A stretch of DNA of 39,828 nt from Rhodothermales bacterium. GTDB lineage: Bacteria > Bacteroidota > Rhodothermia > Rhodothermales > UBA10348. Shown here piece by piece: positions 12,243-30,401 of the stretch (position 1 is the first letter of the stretch; each line of letters opens with the position of its first letter). Position numbers and translations under genes: made by a program. The stretch spans positions 1 through 39,828 of the forward strand of contig JAURNP010000082.1 of the NCBI GenBank assembly GCA_030830105.1, written 5' to 3'. The notes under the pieces are model-generated. The model was not told where the DNA came from, searched no databases, and worked only from the letters and a program-made list of their open reading frames with translations.

Positions 12243-13241
12243 ATGGGAGCTACCATCAGAGACGTCGCAGAGCGAGCAAAGGTATCGATTTCAACGGTAT
12301 CGCGCGTCCTCAATGACACATGCAACGTAAAAGCAGATAAGCGGGATCGAGTTCTCGATGCTGCAGCAGCGCTGGGGTACACGCCTAATCCCGCTGCACA
12401 GAGTTTGCATTCTCGTAAGACCGGGGCCATTGGGATCCTGCTCCCGTACGTGTCCGGCGAGTTCTACGCTGAGCTGTTGAACGGAATTGACAGTGCTGCA
12501 CAGGAAGGGGGACGCTTGTTACTGATATCCACCTCCCATAACTCTGAAGAAGAGTTGGAGGCGGCTATGAAAGGCATGTACCGCCGGGTCGATGGTATGC
12601 TCGTTATGGCTCCTGTTACCACGTCGGAGGCCGTCCTGAGAAGAGCTCCCAGAGACCTTCCTGTAGTGTTCTTGAATACCCGATCAGAAGGGGGCGGTAT
12701 TCCGCTGTTGACGTTTGACAACTACGGTGGCATGCGGGCCATGACGGAGCACCTGATCCAGCGCGGTCACAAGGATATCGGCTTCATTACCGGACCAGCG
12801 GATGCCTTCGATGCCCAGGAACGATTTCGCGGTTACCGTGAAGCCCTTCACGCGTCGGGAATACCTCTTCGAGAAGATCTGATTGCGAATGGCGAATACA
12901 CCCAGCGGGCGGGACATGACGCAGCACGTTATCTGATCGGACTTGCACAGCGCCCCTCGGCGATTATGACCTCGAATGATGACGCAGCCATCGGCGCTCT
13001 GAGTGCCATCCGGGAAGCAGAACTCAGCGTACCTGGTGAGATAGCACTGACGGGCTTTGATGACATACCGAGTGCCATGTTTACCGTGCCACCTTTGTCA
13101 ACCGTACACGTACCGGCACGTGAATTAGGCCGACGGTCGGTGGAGATCTTGGAGATGGCTATCGACAATGGAATCGATGTGGCCTTGGAAGAGACAGGCG
13201 ATTTCTTACCAGTGGAGCTTCGCTTGCGCGCATCAAGCTGA
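12243..13241 (+). CDS. LacI-family transcriptional regulator
   Basis: This 332-residue protein has the complete LacI/GalR layout. The helix-turn-helix and hinge cover residues 3-60 (TIRDVAERAKVSISTVSRVLND, ending YTPNPAAQSLHSRKT), and the periplasmic-binding-protein-like effector domain covers 62-330. Visible landmarks are IGILLPYVSGEFYAELLNGI, VDGMLVMAP, HLIQRGHKDIGFITGP, AIMTSNDDAAIGAL, LTGFDDIPSAMFTVPPLSTVHVP and the C-terminal core. The effector is probably a sugar; the GH16 glucanase next door suggests a beta-glucan oligosaccharide or glucose derivative (inference). It is divergent from the SGNH hydrolase with a candidate operator between them. A short terminator follows at 13346-13368. 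Confidence 0.93.
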   Translation: MGATIRDVAERAKVSISTVSRVLNDTCNVKADKRDRVLDAAAALGYTPNPAAQSLHSRKTGAIGILLPYVSGEFYAELLNGIDSAAQEGGRLLLISTSHNSEEELEAAMKGMYRRVDGMLVMAPVTTSEAVLRRAPRDLPVVFLNTRSEGGGIPLLTFDNYGGMRAMTEHLIQRGHKDIGFITGPADAFDAQERFRGYREALHASGIPLREDLIANGEYTQRAGHDAARYLIGLAQRPSAIMTSNDDAAIGALSAIREAELSVPGEIALTGFDDIPSAMFTVPPLSTVHVPARELGRRSVEILEMAIDNGIDVALEETGDFLPVELRLRASS

Positions 13242-13433: not shown

Positions 13434-15290
13434 ATGCTCAGCATGAATAAATCTTTGGGGCTGATGTGGGCCGGTCTCTTTGTGTTGGCTTCCTCAGGCA
13501 CCGCGATGTCCCAAGATTGGCGTTTGGTTTGGAGCGACGAATTCGACAGCGGCGTACAACCAGACCAGACCCGCTGGTCCTATGACGTCGGTGGGGGAGG
13601 GTGGGGCAATCAGGAATTTCAATACTACACGGATTCCCGTCCTCAGAACAGTCGTGTTCAGGATGGCTTATTGATTATCGAGGCCATCAAGGAGGACTTT
13701 TTTGGTTCTACCTACACCTCAGCCCGTCTCAGAACCAAGGGTCAAGGCGATTGGCTATATGGACGTGTTGAAGTGAGAGCAAAACTCCCTGCCGGACTGG
13801 GGACATGGCCTGCCATTTGGATGCTCGCTTCGGAAAGCCATTACGGAGACGGAGGTTGGCCAGACAACGGCGAGATCGACATCATGGAAGGAGTAGGCCA
13901 TGAACCAGACCGTACACACTCAGCCATACACGTCCAGGCTCTCAATCATCAGCTGAATAACAATCCCGGAGCTACATTCATGAAGGAAGACTCGCGAACA
14001 GGGTTCGCCGTCTACGCCATGGACTGGACGCCGAGAACCATCACGACGTACGTCGATGGTGAGGTTAACCTGATTTATGAGCGCGGCAATAGCGATTGGC
14101 AGCGGTGGCCGTTTGATCGCCCTTTCCACTTGATCCTGAACCTTGCAGTAGGTGGATCCTGGGGCGGTATTCAGGGGGTTGACCCGAATGACTTCCCCAC
14201 CCGATTCGAGATTGACTACGTTCGCGTGTTCGAGGATGCAGCCGGGCCTCCAGAGGTTTCTGTATCATCGATTGGCGGACTGACCCAGGTTGATCCGGGT
14301 GAATCCTTGTCGCTTTCTGCGGCGGCAACCGATGCAGCCTCCACAATTGAAGAGCTGGCTCTGTACCAACGAGACGGATTACTCGCTTTTGTGCAAGAGG
14401 GACAGGTTTCTGTCGAACTGGAGAATCTCGCTCCTGGTTGCTATCAAATAAGAGCCGATGCGGTGGATTCGGATGGATGGGAAGCCGGATCGGACACGCT
14501 CAATGTCCAGGTTGGCACCGAGTGCGTGCAAGCCCCGTATCTCATGGTGGCCCCTCTGGTGCCAGGACGCGTTGAGGCTGAGTACTTCGATATTGGCGGG
14601 GCAGGAGAGGCATACCTTGATCTCTCCTCCCAGAACACGGGAGGCGCATTGCGAGCAGATGAAGGAGTGGACATTGGCAGCTCACAGGATATTGGCGGTG
14701 GCTATCAGATTGAAAACGTCACATTGCGCGAGTGGACCGAATACACGGTCAATGTCACGCAATCAGGTTTTTACCGCATGTCGGCGAGACTGGCTGCGAC
14801 GAAGGATGGTTCACTGACCATTTCGGTTGACGACGTTGAGCACGCTGATCCGCTAACGTACAGCTCGACCAACTCGACGTCATTCCACCGGAACGCAGTG
14901 CTGGACGGCCTCTGGCTTGACGAGGGGATTCGCACCGTCAGGGTCGAATACAACGCCATTGGAGCCTACGTGAACCGCTTCGAATTCCGGCTTTTGAGCG
15001 CAACAGGCCTGGAAACGCTACCGGAGTCTTCCGAAATGGAGATCGATGTCTTTCCGAATCCCTTTCAGGACCGTCTCGAATTGATCATCAAGGGAAAGGC
15101 GCCGGGGCCGAGTGTTATCTCCATGTATGATGTCACCGGTCGTCGCGTTTTTCATACATCTCTCACGGGTCATAAATCGACCACAAACCACGTACAGTTA
15201 AACCCTACAGAACGCATGAGTCCTGGTTTGTATCTCGTTGTAATCCAATCGGATACAGACACTTACACAACGACCGTAATCCGGCGCTGA
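13434..15290 (+). CDS. Secreted GH16 endo-beta-glucanase (laminarinase type) with CBM6 and T9SS sorting domain
   Basis: A signal peptide (residues about 4-26, ending GTAMSQ) leads into a GH16 domain (about 27-265). The retaining active site is GEIDIMEG, with E147 as nucleophile, D149 as the assisting residue and E152 as acid/base. The extra residue in E-I-D-I-M-E is the form seen in laminarinases and related beta-1,3(4)-glucanases, so laminarin-type glucans are the likely substrate. An Ig-like linker region (about 270-365) follows, then a CBM6-like module (about 378-523, RVEAEYFD ... GYQIENV ... GFYRMSARLA). The C-terminus (about 533-618) is a type IX secretion sorting domain with DVFPNPFQDRLEL and SPGLYLVVIQ, so the enzyme is expected on the cell surface or outside. 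ATG 13443 is an equally plausible start. No TGAAAA dyad was seen directly upstream. Confidence 0.93.
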   Translation: MLSMNKSLGLMWAGLFVLASSGTAMSQDWRLVWSDEFDSGVQPDQTRWSYDVGGGGWGNQEFQYYTDSRPQNSRVQDGLLIIEAIKEDFFGSTYTSARLRTKGQGDWLYGRVEVRAKLPAGLGTWPAIWMLASESHYGDGGWPDNGEIDIMEGVGHEPDRTHSAIHVQALNHQLNNNPGATFMKEDSRTGFAVYAMDWTPRTITTYVDGEVNLIYERGNSDWQRWPFDRPFHLILNLAVGGSWGGIQGVDPNDFPTRFEIDYVRVFEDAAGPPEVSVSSIGGLTQVDPGESLSLSAAATDAASTIEELALYQRDGLLAFVQEGQVSVELENLAPGCYQIRADAVDSDGWEAGSDTLNVQVGTECVQAPYLMVAPLVPGRVEAEYFDIGGAGEAYLDLSSQNTGGALRADEGVDIGSSQDIGGGYQIENVTLREWTEYTVNVTQSGFYRMSARLAATKDGSLTISVDDVEHADPLTYSSTNSTSFHRNAVLDGLWLDEGIRTVRVEYNAIGAYVNRFEFRLLSATGLETLPESSEMEIDVFPNPFQDRLELIIKGKAPGPSVISMYDVTGRRVFHTSLTGHKSTTNHVQLNPTERMSPGLYLVVIQSDTDTYTTTVIRR

Positions 15291-15474: not shown

Positions 15475-17709
15475 ATGAACACGAGTGCTACGACACGCTT
15501 CGGCTTCATGTCCGTCCTGATGCTGCTGGCTGCCTCCTTTATTGTGGCCCCCACGCATGCTCAGAGCGGCTTGACAGAGCTGGGCGACGACTTCATTTTC
15601 TTCTTCGATGGTCCGAACGTGCTTATTCCAGAGGCAACGGCTCCGATCGTCAACGATCCGCTCGACCCGACGTCCGGAAACCGTGTACACAAGTACGATT
15701 ACGGTAACTGGTCAGAGAACGGGTATCGTTTCTCCCGTGCGGAAGGACTCGACATGACCCAGAACGTGGGTGCGAGCGGGGGCGAAGGAGACACCCTCTA
15801 TCTCAAACTCCTCGTTGATCCAGCGAACGCCGGGCAGCCCGGCGTTTTCCTGACTATGTTCGACAAGACGGATGACAATCCGAGTAGCGACGGTTCGGCC
15901 GACTTAATGTCGCGTCTCCACTGGCCAATTCCAGAGGAATTGCGCAACGGACAGTGGCACGATTTGGCCATTCCGCTCCCACCAACAACGACGGCGGGTC
16001 TTGCCGCTGCCAAAGAGGGCAACGATATTAATGGTAACCCACTGGCCACGCCGCTGGATGCCAACGCTGCGTTGTGGACTTACGGAGGCGCCTGGTCTGT
16101 CGGTGGTTTTGGTCTTTGGGGCCCTGGAGAATGTAATAATGCCGCTTGTTTCGCCGAATTCGAATGGGATGCTGTTTACAGCCTCACCGTGTTCTTCGAT
16201 AACAACACCGGCGGCGGTCCTGTCTACCTGGACGATGTTTACATCGGTGGTCCTGGTACGGACGTCTCTGCAGCAACGTCGGCACCTGACGCCATGGACG
16301 CAGTCACCGTCGCTGCGGACGGAAGCGCGAACAAAGTCTCTTGGACGCACAACGAATCATTTGGTGGTTACAACGTTTACGCGTCAGAAGACCCCATCAC
16401 CTCGGCGTCTATTCTGGACGGCGGCGCAAGTCTCCTGGGGTCGGTTGCTTTCAATGCAACGGATTTCTCGCTGACGCACGAGCTGGAAATGCCTTTTTCC
16501 ACGCTCGCTGGTGAGCCGCTCTATTACGCTGTGACCTCGAAGAGCTTTTTCGGCGTCGAGAATTCAGATATCTCAGCTTCTTCCGGAAATGTTGCGAACA
16601 CGGATCTTCCGATTGCACCGTTCATCTCCATCCTGACAGATGACGAAGCCAATACCATCTTTAATAACGTCGCAGGTGGTGTTTTGAGCGATGCCGGATT
16701 CCCGGATACGCCTGCCTTCATGATTGATCCAAGCCACTGGCGAGATGGTGACTCCCCGGCTCCGACGGGTGATGGCGCTGCCGCCGACATCTCCGCCATG
16801 GCCAAGGTGGCCATTGATGAGTTTGGCTTCATGTACGTCTATGGGGAAGTAAATGACGATATCGCTGGTTTCCCTGGCGCTAACGCCGATGGCGGTGGCA
16901 CATGGAATTTCGACTCGTTCGAAATCTTCCTGGGCAATTACGATGTCCGTGATGTTGGCGGTAGCCTTCTCTCCGGATCACCGCATGGCCAGTATGGTCG
17001 TGGCGCTGAGGCAGATTTCCAGCTGCGCATGGCAGCGGAAGCTGACGAGGCTGGTAACGTTTCCGGCATCGGCATCTGGGCACATGCTGATCCGGCCGGC
17101 GCAACGGGTTCGACTGCTGTTGGTCCTGTTCAGGGTGCCGGTGGTGTCGCTGAAGCAACGGCAACGGGATACCGTTTCCTCGTGGCCATTCCGCTGGAGT
17201 CGGTTTACGATCCAAGTGCTGATCAGCCACTGGCTCTTCCTGCCTCGAATGAGTTGAAAGTCATTCCATTCAACCTTGCCCTTAATGACAAGGACGCAGG
17301 TGGTGGACGCGAAGCTCAGGTCAACTGGTCGCTGAACGCCTCCGCGGGCGCGTGGAACAATCCGTCCAAGTGGCAGCCTACGGCTATCGTTGGTCGTTCA
17401 CTCTTGACCGATACGGAAGATGTCGAAACGGCTCTACCGATCGAATTCGCGCTTGAGCAGAACTACCCGAACCCGTTCAACCCGAGCACGAACATTGAAT
17501 TCTCCATTCCGAACGCAACGCCTGTTCGCCTGGAAGTATTCAACGTTCTCGGTCAGCGTGTCGCCACGCTGGTCAATGGTCAGACGATGACTGCTGGCAC
17601 GCACTCGGTAGCATTTGATGCTTCCGCTATGACGTCCGGTATGTACATCTACCGTCTGCAGGCAGGAGCCAGCTTCTCCCAGACGCGGACAATGATGCTA
17701 CTCAAGTAG
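15475..17709 (+). CDS. Secreted CBM9-like, FnIII-containing protein with T9SS sorting domain
   Basis: The 744-residue protein starts with a signal peptide (residues 1-29, ending PTHAQ). An N-terminal beta-rich region (30-262) has galactose-binding-like features (NGQWHDLAIPLP, GPVYLDDVYIG). A fibronectin-III-like segment follows (about 268-375, NKVSWTHNESFGGYNVYAS ... PLYYAVTSKS). Next is a CBM9/DOMON-like module (about 400-640, FGFMYVYGEVNDD ... NFDSFEIFLGNYD ... YRFLVAIPLESV). The C-terminal sorting domain begins near 660 (EQNYPNPFNPSTNIEFSIP ... GMYIYRLQAG). No catalytic motif was seen, so a surface glycan-binding role is likely; functionally it could replace SusD/SusE-type binding proteins (inference). 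Two candidate LacI-type operators precede it and a strong hairpin follows it. Confidence 0.85.
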   Translation: MNTSATTRFGFMSVLMLLAASFIVAPTHAQSGLTELGDDFIFFFDGPNVLIPEATAPIVNDPLDPTSGNRVHKYDYGNWSENGYRFSRAEGLDMTQNVGASGGEGDTLYLKLLVDPANAGQPGVFLTMFDKTDDNPSSDGSADLMSRLHWPIPEELRNGQWHDLAIPLPPTTTAGLAAAKEGNDINGNPLATPLDANAALWTYGGAWSVGGFGLWGPGECNNAACFAEFEWDAVYSLTVFFDNNTGGGPVYLDDVYIGGPGTDVSAATSAPDAMDAVTVAADGSANKVSWTHNESFGGYNVYASEDPITSASILDGGASLLGSVAFNATDFSLTHELEMPFSTLAGEPLYYAVTSKSFFGVENSDISASSGNVANTDLPIAPFISILTDDEANTIFNNVAGGVLSDAGFPDTPAFMIDPSHWRDGDSPAPTGDGAAADISAMAKVAIDEFGFMYVYGEVNDDIAGFPGANADGGGTWNFDSFEIFLGNYDVRDVGGSLLSGSPHGQYGRGAEADFQLRMAAEADEAGNVSGIGIWAHADPAGATGSTAVGPVQGAGGVAEATATGYRFLVAIPLESVYDPSADQPLALPASNELKVIPFNLALNDKDAGGGREAQVNWSLNASAGAWNNPSKWQPTAIVGRSLLTDTEDVETALPIEFALEQNYPNPFNPSTNIEFSIPNATPVRLEVFNVLGQRVATLVNGQTMTAGTHSVAFDASAMTSGMYIYRLQAGASFSQTRTMMLLK

Positions 17710-17733
17710 TACTGTCCTAGTATATCGTCGATG

Positions 17734-17768
17734 AAAGTGGGGCCTGCCTACCGGGCAGGCCCCACTTT
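17734..17768 (+). terminator. Strong intergenic hairpin between the CBM9-like gene and the TonB receptor
   Basis: AAAGTGGGGCCTGCC (17734-17748) and GGCAGGCCCCACTTT (17754-17768) pair perfectly over 15 bp with a 5-nt loop. No long T run follows beyond the three T of the stem, so it may be a partial terminator or a 3-prime stabiliser that lets some transcripts continue into the receptor operon. It covers the first codons of the longest possible receptor frame, which argues for the later start at 17806. Confidence 0.75.
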
Positions 17769-17805
17769 CTTTGGCGCTTCTTTCCAACTGGAATCCCTGG
17801 ATCCC

Positions 17806-20562
17806 ATGGTTTCAAAGTCAGCCTTTTTCAGTGCCTTGCTGGTGTTATGGCTAGGCACTGGTGTCACCTCTATGGCCAGCCCCCTCGATGAAGAGGCGGC
17901 CATTTATGGTAAAATATCGGGCCGTGTCGTGGATGCGGCTACTGGAGATCCTTTGCCGGGCGTGAACGTCGTGATCGATGGCACCACCCAAGGAACGGCT
18001 ACAGATCTGGACGGGGAGTACGTGATTATTCGTATACGGCCGGGCAGATATGCCCTCAGAGCCCAATTCATCGGATTCCAGACTCAGGTGATTGAAAATG
18101 TCGAGGTCATTATCGACCAGACTACACGGGTTGATTTCCGTCTCGGCGAAGAGATTCTGGAAGGAGAGGAGATCGTGGTGACCGCAGAACGCCCTATCGT
18201 CCAGGTTGACCGCACTACGACGACGGCCGTTGTTGGAGAAGAACAGCTGGAAGCGCTACCAGTGCTTGGAATTAATGATGCTATCAACCTGCAGGCCGGG
18301 GTTGTGGATGGACGATTCCGCGGTGGGCGCTCAGGAGAGGTTGCGTACTTGATCAATGGTATCCCGATCAATAACGCCTTCAATAATCAAGCCTCCTTCG
18401 AGATTGAGCAAAACATGGTCTCGAACCTCCAAGTGATCAGTGGGGTGTTCAACTCGGAATACGGACAGGCTCAGTCTGGTGTTGTGAACATCGTAACCAA
18501 AGACATTCCCGATTCATGGTCTGGAAACGTTTTGGCGTATGCCGGAACCATGGTTTCCGACCGCGAACTAGAGTTCATGAATCGGACCGTGGGTCCTGGT
18601 AACAATCTTTTGGCCTCAGATTTTGGGTCAGAGACGTACACGTACAATGAATTAGCTCCCATCCGGAATTTGACCGATGTCCAATTTTCTTTCGGTGGTC
18701 CTCTATTGAATGAGAAGCTGGGCTTGCAGGTGACTACACGGTGGCTGGATGACAACGGCAATCAGTTTGGCCGACGTCTTTTTTCGCCGGCCGACTCATC
18801 GGTAGGATTGAATACCGGTCGCGACCCTTCGGAGTGGAATATTGAATCCAACGGAGACGGCGACTTCGTCTCGATGGGGACCAACCAGCGTCTTTCCATC
18901 AACACGGGACTCACGGCGCGCCTCTCTGGCAACACACGCTTTGAGTACAATCTGTTCTGGCAGGACGGGAAGACGACGCCTTACAGTCACGATGCCAAGT
19001 ACGTCCCTGATGGCCTCAACGGAGGCTATTATGGTAGCCAGACGCATATTGCTGCGTTGCGCTACACGGTGGGCACCAAGTCATTCGGTCAGCTCTCCTA
19101 CAGCCTTCTGCGTGACAAATGGGACTACTATCTGTTTGAAGATCCCACAGACCCGCGATATCAGTGGCCACAGAAACGAAACTTGGATGGCCAGAATGCC
19201 TTCGATGTGGGAGGCAACGATTTGTTCAGTGATGATCAGCTGACTGTCACCCACACCATCCTGACGGACTTCACCAGTCAGGTCAACAAACGCCACCTCG
19301 TCAAAGGGGGGCTGATGAGCCGTCTTCACCGCCTGAAGAACCGCTCCTTCGGTATTGAGCGTTCTGCTCGAACAGGGAATCTGCCAGCGGTGTCGCCTGA
19401 CCGATTCGCTGATAACGAGTTGGATGTGAAGCCAACCGAATTCGCAGCATACATCCAGGACAAGATGGAATTCACGGGTCTGATCGTGAACGCGGGTCTG
19501 CGCTTTGATTATTTCAATTCCAACTTCGACATTCCGGTCGAGTGGCGACAGGCACAGGATGCCAGGATTTTTGATCCAGCTTCTCAGGATTCCATTTCCA
19601 ACCGAGTAAAGGCGGATCCGGATATGCAGATCAGCCCGCGTATCGGGATCGCCTTCCCGATTTCCTCCACAGGCGTAATGCGCTTTTCGGCCGGGCTCTT
19701 TTTCCAAATCCCAGCTCTCGCGCTTCTCTATACGAACCCGGAATATGAGGTCAACCCACAGTCCAGCAGCGTCCAGTTTGGAAACCCTGCATTGGAGCCC
19801 GAGCGCACCCTGGCGTTCGAAGTGGGACTGCAGCAGGGGCTGACGGATAACATCGGTCTGGAATTGACCATCTTCTCCAAGGATGTTCGCAACCTGACGG
19901 GTCAAGAGATTGATCGTACCCCGACAGGGGATCAGGTCGTGCAGTGGATCAACCGTGATTTCGGTACGATTCGGGGCTTCACCTTCTCGATGTTCGACCG
20001 CCCGGGCGGTAAAGTATCCTGGACATTTGATTACACATTACAGTTCGCTGAGGGTACCTCTTCGGACCCGGGTGAAGCATTCGGCCGCGCCCAGTCAGGC
20101 CTTGAGCCTATTCTTTCGTTGGTTCGTCTGAATTGGGACCGTCGCCATGTCTTCAATAGTACCGTTACCATTAAGCCTATTGAAGGGCTTTCGGTGACCA
20201 TGGTAAACCGCCTGCGTTCAGGCGAACCGTACACCACGGTTCGTGGTTTTGTACGGTCTACGCGACCAAACAATGCCGACCGCCCCGTGCAGTTCTGGAC
20301 GGATCTTCGGGCCTATTACGCGCCACCGTTCATCGAGCAGGATGTGCAGCTGTTCCTTCAGGTGCAGAACCTGTGGGATCGTGCCAACCAGTATGCGGTT
20401 TGGGCGACGACGGGAAGCTGGGATGAGTCGTTGGAACTTGAACAGTTCCGCGCGACCGGTGCCGCTGTAGGTGGTCTCAATACGTTGGATGAGTATTACG
20501 CTCGTCCGGACTGGGTATCCGGTCCTCGTCAAGTCAGTCTTGGACTCCAATATTCATTCTGA
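17806..20562 (+). CDS. TonB-dependent outer-membrane receptor with carboxypeptidase-regulatory-like domain
   Basis: The protein is 918 residues from ATG 17806. The longer frame from 17731 starts inside a hairpin and lacks a signal-like N-terminus, whereas this start gives VSKSAFFSALLVLWLG and a cleavage region near TSMAS. The mature protein opens with a CarboxypepD_reg-like Ig fold (GKISGRVVDAATGDPLPGVNV ... DLDGEYVIIRIRPGRYALRA). A plug follows (VVTAERPIVQVDRTTT ... GRSGEVAYLINGIPINN ... GEYGQAQSGVVNIVTK-like segment). The rest is a beta-barrel ending LGLQYSF with the terminal aromatic residue of outer-membrane barrels. It should import a ligand using TonB energy, probably an oligosaccharide given the setting. 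No SusD-like gene follows; instead the 1142-aa secreted protein begins 2 bp after the stop. Confidence 0.93.
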   Translation: MVSKSAFFSALLVLWLGTGVTSMASPLDEEAAIYGKISGRVVDAATGDPLPGVNVVIDGTTQGTATDLDGEYVIIRIRPGRYALRAQFIGFQTQVIENVEVIIDQTTRVDFRLGEEILEGEEIVVTAERPIVQVDRTTTTAVVGEEQLEALPVLGINDAINLQAGVVDGRFRGGRSGEVAYLINGIPINNAFNNQASFEIEQNMVSNLQVISGVFNSEYGQAQSGVVNIVTKDIPDSWSGNVLAYAGTMVSDRELEFMNRTVGPGNNLLASDFGSETYTYNELAPIRNLTDVQFSFGGPLLNEKLGLQVTTRWLDDNGNQFGRRLFSPADSSVGLNTGRDPSEWNIESNGDGDFVSMGTNQRLSINTGLTARLSGNTRFEYNLFWQDGKTTPYSHDAKYVPDGLNGGYYGSQTHIAALRYTVGTKSFGQLSYSLLRDKWDYYLFEDPTDPRYQWPQKRNLDGQNAFDVGGNDLFSDDQLTVTHTILTDFTSQVNKRHLVKGGLMSRLHRLKNRSFGIERSARTGNLPAVSPDRFADNELDVKPTEFAAYIQDKMEFTGLIVNAGLRFDYFNSNFDIPVEWRQAQDARIFDPASQDSISNRVKADPDMQISPRIGIAFPISSTGVMRFSAGLFFQIPALALLYTNPEYEVNPQSSSVQFGNPALEPERTLAFEVGLQQGLTDNIGLELTIFSKDVRNLTGQEIDRTPTGDQVVQWINRDFGTIRGFTFSMFDRPGGKVSWTFDYTLQFAEGTSSDPGEAFGRAQSGLEPILSLVRLNWDRRHVFNSTVTIKPIEGLSVTMVNRLRSGEPYTTVRGFVRSTRPNNADRPVQFWTDLRAYYAPPFIEQDVQLFLQVQNLWDRANQYAVWATTGSWDESLELEQFRATGAAVGGLNTLDEYYARPDWVSGPRQVSLGLQYSF

Positions 20563-20564
20563 GC

Positions 20565-23500
20565 ATGTCAAACTTCATGAAACGTACGTTGCGCACTATG
20601 ACGGGTAACAGCCGTCCTATCGCTCTATCCACGTTCCTGGTGGCATTGCTGGTACTGGCAATGGCTACCCCGGCTGTACAGGCTCAGACTCGGATTCCGA
20701 GTGACTACAGGGGAAGCGAGGATATGATTGCTCGCGGAATTCTGGATGGAAATCTGATTGAAACCAACTTCCGCAATCACGGTGAGCTGGCCCGCTGGAA
20801 TGACCTTCCATGGGGCGTCTGGCCTCGAGGCGTTGGCGGTCGTCATATTGACGGTGTAGGTATCATGGCGGCAGGCCGCGTTCGCGCCGAGCGGGAGAAG
20901 TGGCCTTTCTACAACGGAGCGGCCGATACGCTGGTAAACCCGGTCATCTTGACCTACCGCGAGGCCGGTAAGCGGCTTGGTCCTGGAGGCGAGTTGTGGG
21001 GATGGTTGCCGCTGGACGGCTTCCATAATACGCGCCGGATCAACGCCCTGGGACTTCTAGAGCCTGTCCCAGCGCTTTCTGATGATCCGAGCTCATGGCC
21101 GGCATTTTGGCCGGACCGCCTCGACAACCCGGATGATCCGGGTTGGGGTGGAAATTGGAACGGCTTTTTCGGCCGCGGTGTCTTCAATGCTGACCTGGAA
21201 AGCTTCTACGTCATGGACGACTACTCCGACAGGGAGTACCACGTGTCCAGGGTGACAGGGCAGCCGAACTCGCAGTACGGAGTTTTCTACCCCTCGCCGT
21301 CCGATTCCACGATCGGAGGTATGGGCCTTCAAACGCAGGTGCGCATTTTTCAGTGGGCCAACATCCTTGCCGAGGATGTGATGTTTATTCTGTACCGTAT
21401 TTCTAACACTTCCGAAACAGACTACCGCTACAACCTAGAGGGTTCGGAAGGCATGTTTTTCACCCAGATCATGGACTATGGTTTGGGGAATGAGGAAGGA
21501 GACGAAAACGCAGCCTTCAACGCCCGTGAAGACGTGACCTTCGGATGGGATCAGGACGGAATCGGTCAGCGTCAGGATGGAACGCTCTACGATCTAGGAT
21601 ATACCGGATTCGCCTTCCTGGAAAGTCCGACACGTGCCGAAGATGGCCTGGACAACGATGAGGACGGAATCATTGACGAGCAGCGTTTTGGTGGTCCTGG
21701 TCAATTGATTGAAGGGCAAGATGCCATTCGACTCTACGTGTCCAATAACTATGACTTGATCAACTTTGAACTGGCCAACGGTCCAGTCGAAGAGACGCGT
21801 GCTTTCAAAGCCGGTCGGTGGTGGACCGGTGATGAAAACCTCGATTGGCTCGGATTTGACGATGTCAATGGCAACGGAGTAATGGATTCCGGTGAATCGG
21901 CGAACAACGATGTCGGTCTGGATGGGAAAGGTCCTTTCGACCTTGAATATCCCGGACCTGACGAAGGGGAAGCCAATGGCCGCCCGGACGCCGGTGAACC
22001 GAACTTCGATGAGCTTGATGTTGCCGAGTCTGACATGATCGGTCTCACCGGATTCGATCTTTCGTCCCGTCCCTTCTACGAGAATGGCGACAACCTGAGA
22101 GACGACACCTGGATGTTTGATCGCATCCTGAATTTCGCTCAGTTCCCGCTCGGAACGCCCTCGGATGCTTTTGAAGCGGATATTGAGCCGTTCCTTCTGT
22201 TCGTATCGGGTCCGGTAAACCTCTTCCGCGAAAAGGTGGACTTCTTCTCTACCGCATGGGTGTTCGGGGAAGACGAGCAGGACTTCTTCAAGAACCGTCG
22301 GACGGTACAGAGCATCTACGATGCTGACTACAACTTTGCGCAGGCTCCATTCCTTCCAACCCTGACGGCGATTCCGGGTGACGGTCGCGTTGTCCTGACC
22401 TGGGATACCACGTCGGTAGCTAGTTTCGACCGCTTCAGCCAGGAGTTCGATTTCGAGGGATACCGTCTGTACAAGGGTACCAACCCGCTTCTGACGGATG
22501 CGCGTACCATTACCAACGTGGATGGCACGCCGACCTTCATGGAGCCAGTCGGGCAGTGGGACCTCGTGAATGATATTTCCGGACCTGTTACAGTCCTCGA
22601 AAATGAAGCGGTGTATGATCTGGGGGACAACTCGGGTCTTTCCTTCTTCTATGTTGACGAGGATGTCAGCAACGGGATGACCTACTACTACGCGCTGGTT
22701 GCATACGATAGGGGTATTCGGGAGAACGGCGAGACTATCATTGATCCACAGGAGAACATCTTCAATATCTCTGTGGACCTTGCCGGGAATGTTCTGGGTG
22801 TCTCCCAGAACGCCGCGATCGTCATCCCGCGGAGCAAGCCAGCCGGATTTGTTGACGGTAATGTCAATGAGGACCTCTCGTCCGTCACTGATGGTGTGGG
22901 TGCGGGCAGTATGAACGTTCGCATTATCAGCGGAGCGGAAATCAGGTCTGACAATCCATATCGCGTTGTTTTCCGAAGCGAGGAAGACGACAACCCGAAT
23001 GCGGATATTCAGGTGACTACGTCGTTCGACATTGTCGACATGGCGACCAGTGAGGTCAGGGTGCGAAACAATGCTCTGGTCGACGAACCTCCCATGGTAG
23101 ACGGCTTTATCGTCGAGGTCGATAACTACGAAGTGGCCTCTGGAGCCATCGAGTTTGATGAGAACCAGACGGGGTGGGTTGGCAGCGCCGGAACAGCATC
23201 CGAGCTGGTAGACATCGACCCATCCGGGCTAGACGGGGTCTCGACCAACTGGAAAGCGTATGTACGAGCAGATTCGACTACCCTGCACATTCCGACTACG
23301 TTCGACTATGAGGTGCACTGGGTGAATCCGGCTGATTCAACCTATCGGTTACCACGGTTCGGTATCGGCTTCCTGACGGGCTCTGTGCCCATTTTTGTCA
23401 AGAACACGACGACCAATCAGGTTGTGGATTTATTGATCCAGGACCAGAACAATAACCGCGAATTCGACGAAGAGGATGATGTGATTGCGGTGGATCGTGA

Positions 23501-23993
23501 CGGCTTCCAGCGCAAGTTCCGGTTCCGCATATCCTTCTCGATCCCAGAGGGTGCAACGTCATCGGCACCGGACGCGGGCACGGTCTTCCGTATCACGCCT
23601 AAAAAAGAATTCCATACGGGCGACTACTTTCAGTTCACGTTGCGCGAGCCGTACGTGGACGCTCAGCTGGCGGAACAGGAGCTTGATCACATTGGCGTTG
23701 TGCCCAACCCATACGTTGGTGGCTCGGGCTTCGAACAGCGAAGCCAGATCTCCGGCCGCGGTGAACGCCGTTTGCAGTTCATCAATCTTCCGCAGGAGGC
23801 AACGATTACCATCTTCAACCTGCGTGGCGAGCTGGTTGACGAAATCGAGCACTTTTCAACCTCGGACAATGGTTCGGTCTTCTGGGATCTTCAGACCCGC
23901 GGTGGCCAGGACATTGCTTATGGAGTGTACATCTATCACGTGGAGGCTCCCGGTATCGGTGAGCACGTCGGCAAGTTTGCCGTCGTCAAATAG
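20565..23993 (+). CDS. Large secreted protein with Ca-binding loops, FnIII and FlgD/T9SS-like C-terminal domain; receptor partner
   Basis: This 1142-residue protein begins 2 bp after the receptor stop, implying translational coupling. A signal peptide spans about 1-41 (LVALLVLAMATPAVQAQ); ATG 20577 is an alternative start. The large N-terminal region (42-590) matches no family I can name. It contains two acidic loops of EF-hand or thrombospondin-3 type: DGLDNDEDGIIDE at 360-372 and DVNGNGVMDSGE at 433-444. A FnIII-like module covers about 595-720 (PGDGRVVLTWDT ... FEGYRLYKGT ... YYYALVAYDRG). The C-terminal module from about 1045 (VVPNPYVGGSGF ... ATITIFNLRGELV ... GVYIYHVEAPG) resembles FlgD-Ig/T9SS sorting domains, so surface exposure is likely. 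Position suggests it does the job of SusD as lid or binding partner of the receptor (inference). Confidence 0.8.
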   Translation: MSNFMKRTLRTMTGNSRPIALSTFLVALLVLAMATPAVQAQTRIPSDYRGSEDMIARGILDGNLIETNFRNHGELARWNDLPWGVWPRGVGGRHIDGVGIMAAGRVRAEREKWPFYNGAADTLVNPVILTYREAGKRLGPGGELWGWLPLDGFHNTRRINALGLLEPVPALSDDPSSWPAFWPDRLDNPDDPGWGGNWNGFFGRGVFNADLESFYVMDDYSDREYHVSRVTGQPNSQYGVFYPSPSDSTIGGMGLQTQVRIFQWANILAEDVMFILYRISNTSETDYRYNLEGSEGMFFTQIMDYGLGNEEGDENAAFNAREDVTFGWDQDGIGQRQDGTLYDLGYTGFAFLESPTRAEDGLDNDEDGIIDEQRFGGPGQLIEGQDAIRLYVSNNYDLINFELANGPVEETRAFKAGRWWTGDENLDWLGFDDVNGNGVMDSGESANNDVGLDGKGPFDLEYPGPDEGEANGRPDAGEPNFDELDVAESDMIGLTGFDLSSRPFYENGDNLRDDTWMFDRILNFAQFPLGTPSDAFEADIEPFLLFVSGPVNLFREKVDFFSTAWVFGEDEQDFFKNRRTVQSIYDADYNFAQAPFLPTLTAIPGDGRVVLTWDTTSVASFDRFSQEFDFEGYRLYKGTNPLLTDARTITNVDGTPTFMEPVGQWDLVNDISGPVTVLENEAVYDLGDNSGLSFFYVDEDVSNGMTYYYALVAYDRGIRENGETIIDPQENIFNISVDLAGNVLGVSQNAAIVIPRSKPAGFVDGNVNEDLSSVTDGVGAGSMNVRIISGAEIRSDNPYRVVFRSEEDDNPNADIQVTTSFDIVDMATSEVRVRNNALVDEPPMVDGFIVEVDNYEVASGAIEFDENQTGWVGSAGTASELVDIDPSGLDGVSTNWKAYVRADSTTLHIPTTFDYEVHWVNPADSTYRLPRFGIGFLTGSVPIFVKNTTTNQVVDLLIQDQNNNREFDEEDDVIAVDRDGFQRKFRFRISFSIPEGATSSAPDAGTVFRITPKKEFHTGDYFQFTLREPYVDAQLAEQELDHIGVVPNPYVGGSGFEQRSQISGRGERRLQFINLPQEATITIFNLRGELVDEIEHFSTSDNGSVFWDLQTRGGQDIAYGVYIYHVEAPGIGEHVGKFAVVK

Positions 23994-24004
23994 GGAGGCT
24001 GATC

Positions 24005-25054
24005 ATGCGACGTATAATCTCTTTCCTGACACTTTTTGCGCTGGCAGTGACCGTTCAGGCACAGGATGCGCAGTCTGATGATCAGAGTCGTGTCGGTACG
24101 ACGGCAGCAACCTTCCTGACGCTGGGTGCTGGTGCGCCTGGCGCCTCGCTGGGGCACGCCTACACCGCTACTGCAACAGGTGCTGATGCACTCTTCTGGA
24201 ATCCAGGTGGAGCAGCCATTGCCCACCGTTCGGGACAGAGGGGCGGTTTGATGTTCTCGAACAACGAATGGATTGCCGGCATCACATACAACACGGCTGG
24301 TCTCACGTTACCTGCCGGTGGTTCTGGCGTGGTTGGTTTGAGCATCGCTTCCGTGGATTACGGTTCCATGAAAGTGCGTACGATTGCCCGGCCGGAAGGC
24401 ACGGGGGAGACGTTCAGTGCCTCGGACTTGAGTGTAGGCCTGACCTATGCGATGCCTCTGACGCCGGATTTCTACTTCGGAGGTACCTCGAAACTGGTAC
24501 GCCAGTCCATTCGTGACATGCGAGCGCGCACCATGGCCATCGACGTGGGCTTCGTTCTCCTGACGGACTATTTCAACGGTCTGAAGGTTGCGGCATCCAT
24601 CATGAATTTCGGTGGTAAGATGACCATGCGTGGCATCAACTCCGAAATCCAGGTTGATTTGGATTCTCAGCACGAAGGCTCCTCCGAGAGTATTCCAGCG
24701 CGAATCAAAATGGATGCTTGGGACCTTCCCATGTCATTCAAGTTTGGTATCTCGCTTCCTGTCATCAAGACGGGTGCAACCGAACTGGTTGTGCTGGCCG
24801 ATGCCAACCAGACGAACGACAATAACCTGAATGCAGATCTTGGGGCACAGTTCTCGTACATGACGCGTATGCTGAGCTTCAACGCTCGCGCAGGGTATAA
24901 GGACGCTTTCATCGACAATGTGGACTCCCACATTGCTTACGGTGCCGGTCTTGACCTGCAGCTCTCAGGTGTCCGTTTCGGATTCGATTACGCTTATGTT
25001 CCGTTTGATCTCCTTGATCGTTCCCAGACGATTGACTTCCGCATCTTCTTCTGA
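24005..25054 (+). CDS. PorV/PorQ-family outer-membrane protein
   Basis: This 349-residue protein has a signal peptide (residues 1-20, ending VTVQAQ). The PorV/PorQ N-terminal pattern is visible: VGTTAATFLTLGAGAPGASLGHAYTATATGADALFWNPGGAA. It is followed by alternating beta strands and ends in FRIFF, a typical outer-membrane insertion signal. PorV is the T9SS shuttle that receives cargo from the translocon SprA and passes it to the attachment complex; related barrels of the same family sit in other operons. GGGAGG lies 6-7 bp before the ATG, and the gap to the previous stop is 11 bp. A PorV-like barrel encoded directly after a protein with a sorting-like domain suggests dedicated export or anchoring of that protein (inference). 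Confidence 0.87.
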   Translation: MRRIISFLTLFALAVTVQAQDAQSDDQSRVGTTAATFLTLGAGAPGASLGHAYTATATGADALFWNPGGAAIAHRSGQRGGLMFSNNEWIAGITYNTAGLTLPAGGSGVVGLSIASVDYGSMKVRTIARPEGTGETFSASDLSVGLTYAMPLTPDFYFGGTSKLVRQSIRDMRARTMAIDVGFVLLTDYFNGLKVAASIMNFGGKMTMRGINSEIQVDLDSQHEGSSESIPARIKMDAWDLPMSFKFGISLPVIKTGATELVVLADANQTNDNNLNADLGAQFSYMTRMLSFNARAGYKDAFIDNVDSHIAYGAGLDLQLSGVRFGFDYAYVPFDLLDRSQTIDFRIFF

Positions 25055-25055
25055 T

Positions 25056-26723
25056 GTGACGAAGGGATACCCGCAAAAGCAACCTCTCAGACAACGCCCG
25101 GCACTCTTTGGGTGTCTGGCGTTGCTGTTCCTGTTCGTTGCAGGCTGTGGTGCTGACTCCGGCCCCGGTCCCGATCGGGACCCGCGGACGCTTGCTACGG
25201 TCGATGGGTTCGATGTGTCTGTGTCATGGTTCGAGCAGACCTATATCGACTTCCTCGTTCGCTCGGGCTCGAACGACTCAGAAGTCGCTCGTACCGCTCA
25301 CCTTGAGCAGTTGATTGACGCCCTGCTGCTATCGCGCCATTATTCGACCCTGGACCGAGACACGACCCAGGCATTCCGAGAAGAAGTCCGTCGCATTGAA
25401 GCAGAGGAGTTGGGTTCTCGGTTCTTCGAGACGGCCTTTCTGGATACCATGACAGCCCCAACAGACGTTCAGCTTCGACAGGCCTATATCCGAGATCAAT
25501 CGAGGCGTGTTGTAAGGCATCTGTATTTCACGTCAAGCCAGCAGGTTGAGGAGTCGTACGCGCGCCTTCAAAGTGGCGTACCTTTCCTGGAAGAAGCCCA
25601 GTACGTATACGAGCTCTCAGAGTCAGATTCTATGGCGGGATTCCTGGGACCTATCGGCTTCTATTCGGTGGATGATGCCTTCGCCGAGGCCGCATTTTCC
25701 CTGGAGCCTGGTGCATTCTCGGAGCCGGTACGCTCGCGATACGGCTACCATATCATATTGCTTGAGAACATCATCCAGGAGCCGTTGCTCACGGAATCAG
25801 CCTATCTGACACGCCGCTCTGGGCTGTCCAGTCAGTATCGTCAGCGTCGTCGCCGTCTTGAAGGAGGCGTGTTTGTTCGCACCTTCATGAATCAGCTCAA
25901 CGTAGAGGTCAATACACCTGCTATTGAGGCGCTCGACGAATTGATCACATCTATGGACCCGACACTCTATGAGGCAGCCGGTCAGATCGACATTCAAATG
26001 GATACAGGTTGGAAGCAGGATATCGAACCTTCAACGCCGCTTCTGACGTTTGACTGGGATGGAGAGCGGGAAGCATTTACGGCTGGTGATTATGCATTCT
26101 GGTTCGATGCCCTTCCACAGCGGGAGGCCCGCGAGAGAACGGCTGCATCGGTGGGTCGCGCTCTTCGCAATGAGGCGCTCGCTCGGGCTGGAGAAGAGGA
26201 AAAGCTTCGTGACGGTGAGTGGGAGACCGAGGTGGATCGCCGGGTTCGATTGGAGAGGGCTCGATTGATGCGGGAGGATTTACGCATGGAAGACGTCGAA
26301 ATCAATACGTCGTTGGTTCGGCAGGCCTTCGATCGCCTGGGCTGGGCGAATCGCCGTATGGCCATCTTGTCATTTGATGCCATCACAGCGGTTTCCTCCG
26401 ATGCTGTCCAGCGTGCAGCCGCTTTGACCGAGGAGTGGCCTGTCCAGATTCGCGAAGCGACGTTGGAATCTATACCTGAATGGTCGCCCTACGTTGCCAG
26501 CGTGCCTGTCGACTCAGTTGTGTTTGTGGGACGGCGAAATGACTGGGCGGCTATCCGAGTACTGGATCGCCAACGAATCCAACCAAACTGGGTGCGGGAC
26601 CAAGAGGAGATTGTCCGGCGACTGCGCCCATTTGTGGCAGAATACGAGCTGGTGAAGCAGCTGCGAGAAAGAGCCCGAATTGAGATTGACCGCGACTTGA
26701 TGCGCGATATTGCTACGTTCTAG
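25056..26723 (+). CDS. SurA/PpiC-like peptidyl-prolyl isomerase lipoprotein
   Basis: From GTG 25056, one base after the PorV-like stop, the protein has 555 residues. A basic N-terminus and hydrophobic stretch end in the lipobox VAGC with C31 as the lipidation site. A SurA-N-like helical region follows (TLATVDGFDVSVSWFEQTYIDFLV ... LIDALLLSRHY). A parvulin-type rotamase domain lies at about 150-240, with RRVVRHLYF, the GFLGPIGFYSVDDAFAEAAFSLEPGAFSEPVRSRYGYHIILL core and the usual terminal histidine. The C-terminal half is helical. Parvulin lipoproteins fold outer-membrane barrels in the periplasm; here the likely clients are the receptor and PorV-like barrel in the same operon. A longer frame opens at 24918 inside the previous gene but lacks a signal, so the GTG start is preferred. 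Confidence 0.85.
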   Translation: MTKGYPQKQPLRQRPALFGCLALLFLFVAGCGADSGPGPDRDPRTLATVDGFDVSVSWFEQTYIDFLVRSGSNDSEVARTAHLEQLIDALLLSRHYSTLDRDTTQAFREEVRRIEAEELGSRFFETAFLDTMTAPTDVQLRQAYIRDQSRRVVRHLYFTSSQQVEESYARLQSGVPFLEEAQYVYELSESDSMAGFLGPIGFYSVDDAFAEAAFSLEPGAFSEPVRSRYGYHIILLENIIQEPLLTESAYLTRRSGLSSQYRQRRRRLEGGVFVRTFMNQLNVEVNTPAIEALDELITSMDPTLYEAAGQIDIQMDTGWKQDIEPSTPLLTFDWDGEREAFTAGDYAFWFDALPQREARERTAASVGRALRNEALARAGEEEKLRDGEWETEVDRRVRLERARLMREDLRMEDVEINTSLVRQAFDRLGWANRRMAILSFDAITAVSSDAVQRAAALTEEWPVQIREATLESIPEWSPYVASVPVDSVVFVGRRNDWAAIRVLDRQRIQPNWVRDQEEIVRRLRPFVAEYELVKQLRERARIEIDRDLMRDIATF

Positions 26724-28184: not shown

Positions 28185-30401
28185 TTAAAAGAGGAATAGA
28201 TAGGTCAGTTTTGCAACGCCCACCGTGCTGTTCATGAGATAGTCAGCGCGGGGATCAAAGAGGACTTCGTTGTCGCCCGTTGCATGCCAGGATGTATTCA
28301 GGACGAGGAACAGGTCCGATCCGGGTGTGTGAATCCAGTTGATACGGATGTTTGCATTTACATCGCGCGAGAAGTTGTCGTACTGGATAAGCGCCTTGGC
28401 AAACAGCTTTCGGCTTACGCTGGCCAGGATATCCACGGACGCCGTAGTGGCGCTGAATTCTCCATTGGCGATGGGCAGATCCACGTCACTCTTCCTCAAA
28501 CTGGCTCCAAGGGTGAGGTGCTTTGACTGACGCCATCCCGCGTTCAAGCCCCAGTCGAAGCGATTCCCACCATAGAATCCACCCGTTTCGAAATTGGCGC
28601 CACCTGAAATGTTCTTACCCGGATCCGTGTTGACTCTGGCTCCAATTCGGGTGAATGTATAGTCATCGACGGCAATCTCTGCGTCTGGACGAATGAAAAA
28701 GGAACTTTCGAGCCGGTCAAACTGATGCGACCCCGAAACCCGCAATGACATGCGGGCCTGAGACGTGAAGCCAATGGAGGGGTCGATTTCCCAGGACTGC
28801 AGTTCGCCATCTTGTCCGTTGGTATGAATACCCATGACGTGGGTCGTCATCTGACGGAACGGGCCACTGTCGAAGTAAGGGGAGTAGGTGGTCGTAGCAA
28901 TGGTCTGACGCATGTCGCGTCGCCGTACGAATCCTAGTGCCGGCCGGTAGTTTTCTCCAACACTGGTGTAAGAGAAAGAGGCGCCATAGATGTCATTCCG
29001 CAGACTGACCGATGCACTTCCAGCCCAGTCCTCGTTGTTCGGATCGGCGTCAGAGACATCGGTGAACCAGATATCGGCGTTGGAGGCCGAGCCAAAGCGC
29101 TGCTGCACATCAAATCCAACGGCGCGGTTCCACTCATCTCCACGCTCATAGCTGGTTACGATGACGCCCGCCGAGCCACGACGTCCAAAGTTGGTTTGCA
29201 CACGGGCCACGGCATTATTTGCTGAGCGTTTGCCGCCGATGCGTCCAAGCTTTTTGCCGATGGATCCTTCATCGGGGCCAGTTTCAATTCCAATCAATCC
29301 TACGTTCAGCCGGCCGACCTGCCCGGTCAGACGACCACCAGCCAAGATCGACTCGGTAAGGCCGATGCGTCGGGAAAAGAAGGTCTGGGTTCGGCGCGAA
29401 TCGCCATGCTCGAAGATGCCCGAACGCTCTAGGAAAAACTCCCTTTTCTCAGGAAAGAAGGGTGAAAAGCGGGTCAGGTTCACCTGTGCGTTGTCTGCTT
29501 CGACCTGTGCAAAGTCCGTGTTGACAGTAAAGTCCAGGGTCAGGTTGGACGTGATGCCGTATTTGATATCGAAACCGGCATCGAAACTGCTATCCTCGAC
29601 CTTGTTATCCACAGACAGGTCAGGACGAACGGTCTGTGCACCTGTGATGACGTATGGCTTGAATTCTATGTTATTGCCACGGCGGATATTCTTGATGCCC
29701 GTGAGGCGTCCGTAGCGGGAAACGGTTTTCATGTCGTCAGAGTACCCACTGCCGTAGGAAAGGGGAATGAGCGGCCAGTTCTGGATCTCGTTCTTGCGGT
29801 TGACGGTGCGGCGCATGAACAGGCCGAAGGTCAATTCCTCTCCCTCTGGGAAGCGGAGCTGACGAAAGGGAATGCGTACCTCCATCGTCCATCCTTCATC
29901 TGTAATCTGCGTCTCGCTGGCGAAGACGGCATCCCAAGAGTAGGAGTCAATGGTCATGTGCTCGTCAGCAATGAGAGCATCGTCTTGCGTTCCCAAGGCA
30001 TTCATTTCAAACAGGAAGGCGTTGCGACCATCGAGGAACGTATCGATGCCGATGTAGGCATGATCATCGCGGTCGTTGCGCCCCCCACGCTCCATGTTCT
30101 TTGCACGAATAAGGTGCGGCTCCTTGTCCGTAAAATTGAATGCGAAATACAGGTTATCACGGTCGTAGGCCACCTTGGCCCAGCTGTACTCGGTAGGTTC
30201 TGCCCCTTCGTTTGGCCAGCGCTGGACAAAATCATCCATGGAGGAGATCTCGTCCCAAATGGTATCGTCGAGCCTACCATCTACGCGAGGCGCTGCTTCG
30301 ATAAACACGGCTTCGAATGACGGAGGCTCAGGATTTTGGGATTGAGCAGATGCGACGCTTACCACGCAGGCAAGCAGTGCGAACGTTAGGAGACGGATCA
30401 T
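28185..30401 (-). CDS. DUF5916 outer-membrane protein with N-terminal CBM9-like domain
   Basis: This 738-residue protein has a signal peptide (residues 1-19, ending VASAQ). A CBM9-like domain of about 200 residues follows (RVDGRLDDTIWDEI ... AYDRDNLYFAFNFTDKEP ... DDHAYIGIDTFLDGRNAFLFEMNALGTQDDA ... WTMEVRIPFRQLRF). The remaining 500 residues are DUF5916 (TVNTDFAQVEADNAQVNLTRFSPFFPEKREFFLERSGIF ... FFSRRIGL) with beta-barrel strand alternation, ending KLTYLFLF. The family is widespread in Bacteroidota and uncharacterised; a glycan-linked outer-membrane role is suggested by the CBM9-like head. It is monocistronic between tRNA-Leu upstream and a hairpin downstream. Confidence 0.88.
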   Translation of the reverse strand: MIRLLTFALLACVVSVASAQSQNPEPPSFEAVFIEAAPRVDGRLDDTIWDEISSMDDFVQRWPNEGAEPTEYSWAKVAYDRDNLYFAFNFTDKEPHLIRAKNMERGGRNDRDDHAYIGIDTFLDGRNAFLFEMNALGTQDDALIADEHMTIDSYSWDAVFASETQITDEGWTMEVRIPFRQLRFPEGEELTFGLFMRRTVNRKNEIQNWPLIPLSYGSGYSDDMKTVSRYGRLTGIKNIRRGNNIEFKPYVITGAQTVRPDLSVDNKVEDSSFDAGFDIKYGITSNLTLDFTVNTDFAQVEADNAQVNLTRFSPFFPEKREFFLERSGIFEHGDSRRTQTFFSRRIGLTESILAGGRLTGQVGRLNVGLIGIETGPDEGSIGKKLGRIGGKRSANNAVARVQTNFGRRGSAGVIVTSYERGDEWNRAVGFDVQQRFGSASNADIWFTDVSDADPNNEDWAGSASVSLRNDIYGASFSYTSVGENYRPALGFVRRRDMRQTIATTTYSPYFDSGPFRQMTTHVMGIHTNGQDGELQSWEIDPSIGFTSQARMSLRVSGSHQFDRLESSFFIRPDAEIAVDDYTFTRIGARVNTDPGKNISGGANFETGGFYGGNRFDWGLNAGWRQSKHLTLGASLRKSDVDLPIANGEFSATTASVDILASVSRKLFAKALIQYDNFSRDVNANIRINWIHTPGSDLFLVLNTSWHATGDNEVLFDPRADYLMNSTVGVAKLTYLFLF

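Follow-up and report, generated by a model that had tools for sequence, protein, structure and literature searches.

The window analyzed here, meaning the whole stretch of 39,828 nucleotides, comes from a MAG of 2.5 Mb (below, its own genome), in which it is contig C39, and the relatives with which it is compared are Rhodothermales MAGs. It carries a cassette of four plus-strand genes separated, in the ORF calls within the window, by 2, 11, and 1 bp. These are the gaps that an earlier sequence-only reading had reported, and the gene ends (20562/20565, 23993/24005, and 25054/25056) agree with it. The cassette and the features that precede it are as follows.

12243–13241, plus strand: LacI-family regulator, part of the context (Pfam LacI and Peripla_BP)
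13434–15290, plus strand: GH16 enzyme resembling beta-glucanases, with CBM6/35 and a T9SS tail of type A, also context (Glyco_hydro_16, 1.2e-20; Por_Secre_tail, 2e-9)
15475–17709, plus strand: 744-aa surface protein with a CBM9-like domain and a type A T9SS tail (CBM9_1, 8.4e-9; TIGR04183, 6.8e-10)
17733–17769, plus strand: perfect 17-bp hairpin and then a T-rich tail, between the 744-aa surface-protein gene and the receptor gene (from the sequence; −48.5 kcal/mol, z = −6.9)
17806–20562, plus strand: TonB-dependent receptor (TBDR), 918 aa from ATG 17806 (CarbopepD_reg_2, Plug, OMP_b-brl_3)
20565–23993, plus strand: the partner, 1142 aa, founding member of its family (ORF and family search)
24005–25054, plus strand: PorV/PorQ-family barrel, the proposed dedicated shuttle or anchor (NF033709, 139.6 bits, above the cut-off of 90)
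25056–26723, plus strand: parvulin-type PPIase lipoprotein with a GTG start and the lipobox LFVAGC (Rotamase PF00639, 35.2 bits, above the cut-off of 21.7)

The family assignments that had been made for the TBDR, the barrel, and the parvulin lipoprotein are thus all correct. The receptor scores 75 bits against TIGR04056 (SusC/RagA), which is below the cut-off of 368. Its ORF opens at 17731, upstream of ATG 17806, and this ATG is the likelier start because a strong hairpin occupies positions 17733–17769. The hairpin may be a terminator, or a stabilizing hairpin like that of malE-malF, that sets different expression levels. Inverted repeats of 14 bp or more are present at this position in 23 of 63 cassettes, with sequences unrelated to one another; the same count gives 1 of 63 in a coding control and 13 of 63 after the barrel gene. 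The 744-aa protein is a candidate surface glycan-binding protein. A tRNA-Asn gene lies between the cassette and a minus-strand gene (28185–30401) for a protein with DUF5916 and CBM9_1.

Within the partner gene the following segments can be distinguished, all on the plus strand.

20565–20684, plus strand: signal peptide, type I-like, with cleavage after VQA and no lipobox (from the sequence; the pattern is family-wide)
20685–22352, plus strand: beta-rich N-terminal domain, mature residues 1–556 (AlphaFold2 pLDDT 89.2, pTM 0.90; Foldseek)
21651–21680, plus strand: Asp-rich putative Ca-binding loop DNDEDGIIDE (D323, D325, and G328 invariant)
21861–21896, plus strand: second Asp-rich putative Ca-binding loop, DVNGNGVMDSGE (conserved)
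22353–23696, plus strand: beta-sandwich (FN3-like) repeats (AlphaFold2 secondary structure; Foldseek matches to fibronectin-type structures)
23697–23990, plus strand: T9SS C-terminal domain (CTD), VVPNPY...KFAVVK, PorZ-like (profile comparisons)

Two Ca-binding loops and a sorting-like C terminus had been claimed for this protein, and two conserved Asp-rich loops and a T9SS-type CTD are indeed present. Pfam searches gave no significant family and recognized no catalytic domain, and no relative was found in the PDB by phmmer or by profile search. Structure prediction of the full-length protein (AlphaFold2 with 61 homologs, pLDDT 85.7) gave a beta-rich model with few helices; its Foldseek results were dominated by generic FN3 matches (TM ~0.1), and the N-terminal domain was therefore folded alone. 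The best Foldseek matches of that domain are carbohydrate-active enzymes with beta-supersandwich domains (E 1e-5, TM ~0.3). In a predicted model, this resemblance is a hint and not an assignment, and it points weakly to sugar binding. The view that the N-terminal ~550 residues are uncharacterized holds, but they now have a confidently predicted fold with a weak beta-supersandwich likeness. That the best matches are enzymes with such domains could also mean that the partner is itself an enzyme, one of an undescribed family, that acts on glycans outside the cell and feeds the receptor. We consider this very improbable, given that neither Pfam nor the PDB reveals a catalytic domain, that the Foldseek TM is only ~0.3, and that one family found beside varied enzyme classes (below) is a better fit to a binder or a lid.

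The partner occupies the position that SusD has in classical loci, yet, as the sequence-only reading supposed, it is not SusD-like. Its profile aligns with SusD at 0.3% probability (hhalign), and SusD is not among the best 50 Foldseek matches listed for either the full-length or the N-domain model. In Pfam model searches, SusD_RagB had no match in any of seven sampled genomes of the genus, the own genome and six others, and SusD-like_3 and SusD-like_2 had none in the own genome or in five relatives from the genus; SusD-like models do score in a Bacteroides control and in more distant relatives. Several relatives encode SusD as well as the cassette, and it is therefore too simple to call the cassette a SusD substitute.

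The CTD of the family comprises the last ~97 residues (VVPNPY...RGELV...AYGVYIYHV...GKFAxIK) and aligns with type A tails from the same genomes (hhalign, E 4.7e-10, 96.7%). The window partner scores 13.8 bits against TIGR04183 as a whole protein and 18.6 bits with the CTD alone (cut-off 23), and 31.8 bits, through the CTD only, against the PorZ equivalog (cut-off 260), in each case short of the cut-off. Across the family, the PorZ model matches 58 of 58 partner CTDs, the PorU model 53, TIGR04183 37 (weakly), and the type B model 1; the scores stay under the cut-offs of the PorZ, PorU, and type A models. In a control set of 11 type A tails, all 11 match TIGR04183 and 5 also match the PorZ model, which rules out the PorZ-model match as a property specific to partner CTDs. 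By these profile comparisons, the partner CTD appears to be a T9SS domain nearer to PorZ than to type A. With a Sec signal and a CTD homologous to T9SS CTDs, the partner has the sequence hallmarks of a T9SS substrate, and SprA is encoded in 60 of 60 relatives. Previous studies have found that the CTDs of PorU and PorZ are not removed (PMC11285876), that PorU:PorV and PorQ:PorZ form subcomplexes, indicating anchoring by barrels (PMC5562754), and that, within the translocon, loops of PorV bind the CTD (PMC10994853). For type B CTDs, linked cognate substrate-barrel pairs are established (PMC9143113, PMC12618676).

The cassette barrel reaches neither the PorQ equivalog cut-off (74.8 bits, cut-off 220) nor that of PorV (41.9 bits, cut-off 250). 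The cassette barrels group in one clade with support 0.855, from which the PorV and PorQ of the own genome are excluded and which includes one barrel of a variant locus. In this variant, on contig C200 of the own genome (L016, 1–5487), the gene next after the TBDR is that of a PorV-family barrel, a lipoprotein gene comes third, and no family partner lies between TBDR and barrel. The barrel had been suggested either to export or to anchor the partner; a role as anchor or shuttle is the more likely of these, and it is unlikely to be an exporter since the own genome has SprA, PorQ, PorZ, and a canonical PorU-PorV pair at other sites.

The PPIase has a single Rotamase domain; the SurA N-terminal domain has no Pfam match in the window protein, and SurA_N matches are found in Marinimicrobia homologs. 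A PPIase gene lies at most 3 kb downstream in 32 of 66 loci, a sample weighted to the window's ortholog group that is not a population estimate. It may follow the barrel gene, lie between partner and barrel (Marinimicrobia), or lie upstream of the TBDR. An optional folding helper would be the simplest reading of this pattern, and the assembly factors that the sequence-only reading ascribed to the unit are better described as an anchor and an optional chaperone. Linkage of the PPIase in three arrangements might also suggest that partner, barrel, and PPIase are receptor assembly factors or a local BAM-like canopy (compare BamG-BamH and the PPI domain of BamM) and not an uptake machine, and the Bacteroidota BAM does include a FadL-type barrel with an extracellular protein as well as PPIase-fold subunits (PMC12611786, PMC12578637). 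However, BAM has many clients, whereas here there is one divergent partner per receptor (within-genome partner paralogs are 25–43% identical), the partner CTD and the barrel are of T9SS type, and the PPIase is missing from about half of the sampled loci; we regard such a role as very unlikely.

Of 60 related genomes, 57 have a match to the partner family, as do 88 of 198 genomes in an evenly drawn phylum-level sample. Named contigs that carry it come from Balneola, Gracilimonas, Calditrichota, KSB1, Ignavibacteriae, and Marinimicrobia, and weakly from Krumholzibacteriia. A gene-neighborhood survey found the gene order kept in Rhodothermota, Balneolota, Ignavibacteria, and beyond, and the linkage is seen in both MAGs and isolates from six lineages. 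With duplicates removed, a TBDR gene lies directly upstream of the partner in 71 of 72 testable loci, the sole exception being L071, where a 171-aa ORF intervenes. A PorV-type barrel gene lies downstream in 74 of 74 loci, directly so save in four Marinimicrobia loci with the PPIase between. The own genome has 29 TBDR matches in its 2.5 Mb, and chance adjacency is excluded by the conservation of this order. The unit is real and widely conserved, with a core of three genes in place of the four described earlier and the PPIase gene as an optional addition.

Partner relatives in the own genome are found on contigs C28 and C113, each flanked by a TBDR and a PorV-family gene, and at the ends of C112 (after a TBDR gene) and C137 (before a barrel gene); the last two pieces may belong to a single gene that the assembly divided. 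We also note a 776-aa protein on contig C10 (L015, 2893–5223) with partner-like FN3 and CTD regions and no adjoining TBDR or barrel gene, and, on a Marinimicrobia contig (L118, 9559–12291), a further partner-like gene, shorter than the first, that lies downstream of the barrel.

Partner distances correlate with TBDR and barrel distances (Spearman 0.82 and 0.74, uncorrected values to which species relatedness contributes). The best-matching cassette agrees for partner and TBDR in 333 of 421 comparisons and for partner and barrel in 293 of 421, with ~175 expected. Such correlated sequence distances support, but do not prove, coevolution of the cassette genes. They bear on the possibility that the partner, secreted by the T9SS as an adhesin or a surface glycan-binding protein, forms no complex with the TBDR and is linked to it just through a common operon, the barrel being only a transport shuttle as in type B/PorP-like pairs. 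A T9SS CTD and a neighboring PorV-family gene would suffice for this, there is precedent for it (PMC12618676), and another T9SS-tail protein, outside the partner family, also adjoins the TBDR gene. On the other hand, the cross-phylum linkage to the TBDR (71 of 72) and the partner/TBDR covariation exceed usual operon sharing, and we think this arrangement rather unlikely.

The genes around the cassettes are informative about possible ligands. In the window, the genes for the LacI regulator, the GH16 enzyme, and the CBM9-like T9SS-tail protein lie upstream on the same strand, and from this gene content the cassette probably closes a beta-glucan locus. The cassette of Gracilimonas mengyeensis (L126) is near two GH16 genes and a GH3 gene, and the GH16 gene here together with those genes indicates that the window ligand is probably a beta-glucan. 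Another locus (L089) has the order GH13, TBDR, partner, barrel, CBM20, and the two contig ends of the own genome (C112 and C137) carry GH13 + SusG_C and CBM20 + MFS + GH13. Further cassette neighbors are GH13 (L086), GH130 (L140), and PF10091 enzymes (L078 and L085). Glycan transporters would be expected to show just this variety of glycan enzymes beside paralogous cassettes. For some cassettes a role with glycans is less clear, since one paralogous group (L011, L138, and L141–L144) has FG-GAP proteins nearby (L138) and a T9SS-tail protein nearby (with Amidase_2 in L011), and another group adjoins a TPR/cytochrome-like gene.

The reading that we favor, with moderate confidence, is that the genes of the locus specify a TonB-dependent complex for glycan uptake, like SusCD but without SusD, in which a T9SS-exported partner is held by a dedicated PorV/PorQ-type barrel. 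In it, the TBDR would be the energized pore. The partner would use its Sec signal and then cross the outer membrane via the T9SS (SprA) through its CTD, and we infer that it would sit above the receptor at the cell surface, in complex with it, as the ligand-binding partner or lid in transport. We also infer that the CTD would be kept, as it resembles the PorZ CTD, which stays on, and that the adjacent barrel would bind it, taking it from the translocon and holding it at the membrane. This last step is modeled on PorQ/PorZ and on PorP/SprF-like barrels with their cognate substrates. The PPIase lipoprotein may be an optional folding helper.

Comparison with known systems is useful here. Like SusCD of Bacteroidota PULs, the cassette combines a TBDR with a single large, putatively surface-located partner encoded directly downstream, in glycan loci, and its paralogs lie beside varied glycan enzymes, including a starch-type locus with GH13, CBM20, and MFS genes. 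Unlike SusD, the partner has no lipobox, is about twice as large, is dissimilar in profile and fold, and has a T9SS CTD followed by a PorV/PorQ-family barrel gene, and the receptor is below the SusC/RagA cut-off. As in PorQ-PorZ and PorV-PorU (PMC5562754), a CTD-bearing surface protein, whose CTD is nearest the PorZ model, would be held by a PorV-family barrel, but the partner has no PorZ similarity beyond the CTD, the barrel falls below the equivalog cut-offs in a separate clade, and the genes are linked to a TBDR. Type B CTD/PorP-SprF-like pairs (PMC9143113, PMC12618676) likewise have a substrate gene adjoining that of a dedicated outer-membrane barrel, whereas only 1 of 58 cassette CTDs matches the type B model, the barrel is of the PorV/PorQ family, and the substrate is tied to a TBDR. 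Finally, BamG-BamH-BamM (PMC12611786, PMC12578637) shares a FadL-type barrel, an extracellular partner, and a PPIase-fold subunit with the cassette, but BamH and BamM are lipoproteins in one general machine and the cassette has one set per receptor. In agreement with the sequence-only reading, the combination of genes appears uncharacterized, as no description of it was found in the open-access literature searched.

There is about an even chance that the cassettes represent an unrecognized TonB-dependent uptake class across the FCB superphylum, with a T9SS-exported lid, not a surface-exported lipoprotein, and one PorV/PorQ-type anchor barrel for each lid, and that the receptor-lid-anchor unit diversified by substrate in parallel to SusCD. 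If so, glycan uptake in Rhodothermota, Balneolota, Ignavibacteria, Calditrichota, and Marinimicrobia, several of them seldom studied in pure culture, uses a transporter type that SusC/SusD-based PUL searches miss. Many hypothetical genes would gain a role, and the expanded PorV-family barrels of the carrier genomes would have a function as dedicated anchors. The existence of cultured carriers (Gracilimonas mengyeensis and probably Rhodothermus marinus) makes the proposal testable.

The probable R. marinus genome (G042) has one cassette of the L011/L138/L141–L144 group, on its 125-kb replicon. The R. marinus xylan locus (TBDR Rmar_1070 and a T9SS-tail hypothetical protein; PMC6987092) was considered as a further example and set aside, its partner being unmatched by the family. 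In the probable R. marinus genome, L137 (5152–13771) has a TBDR gene and then genes for T9SS-tail proteins of another kind, which fits the hypothetical genes of that xylan locus and is perhaps a second SusD-free arrangement.
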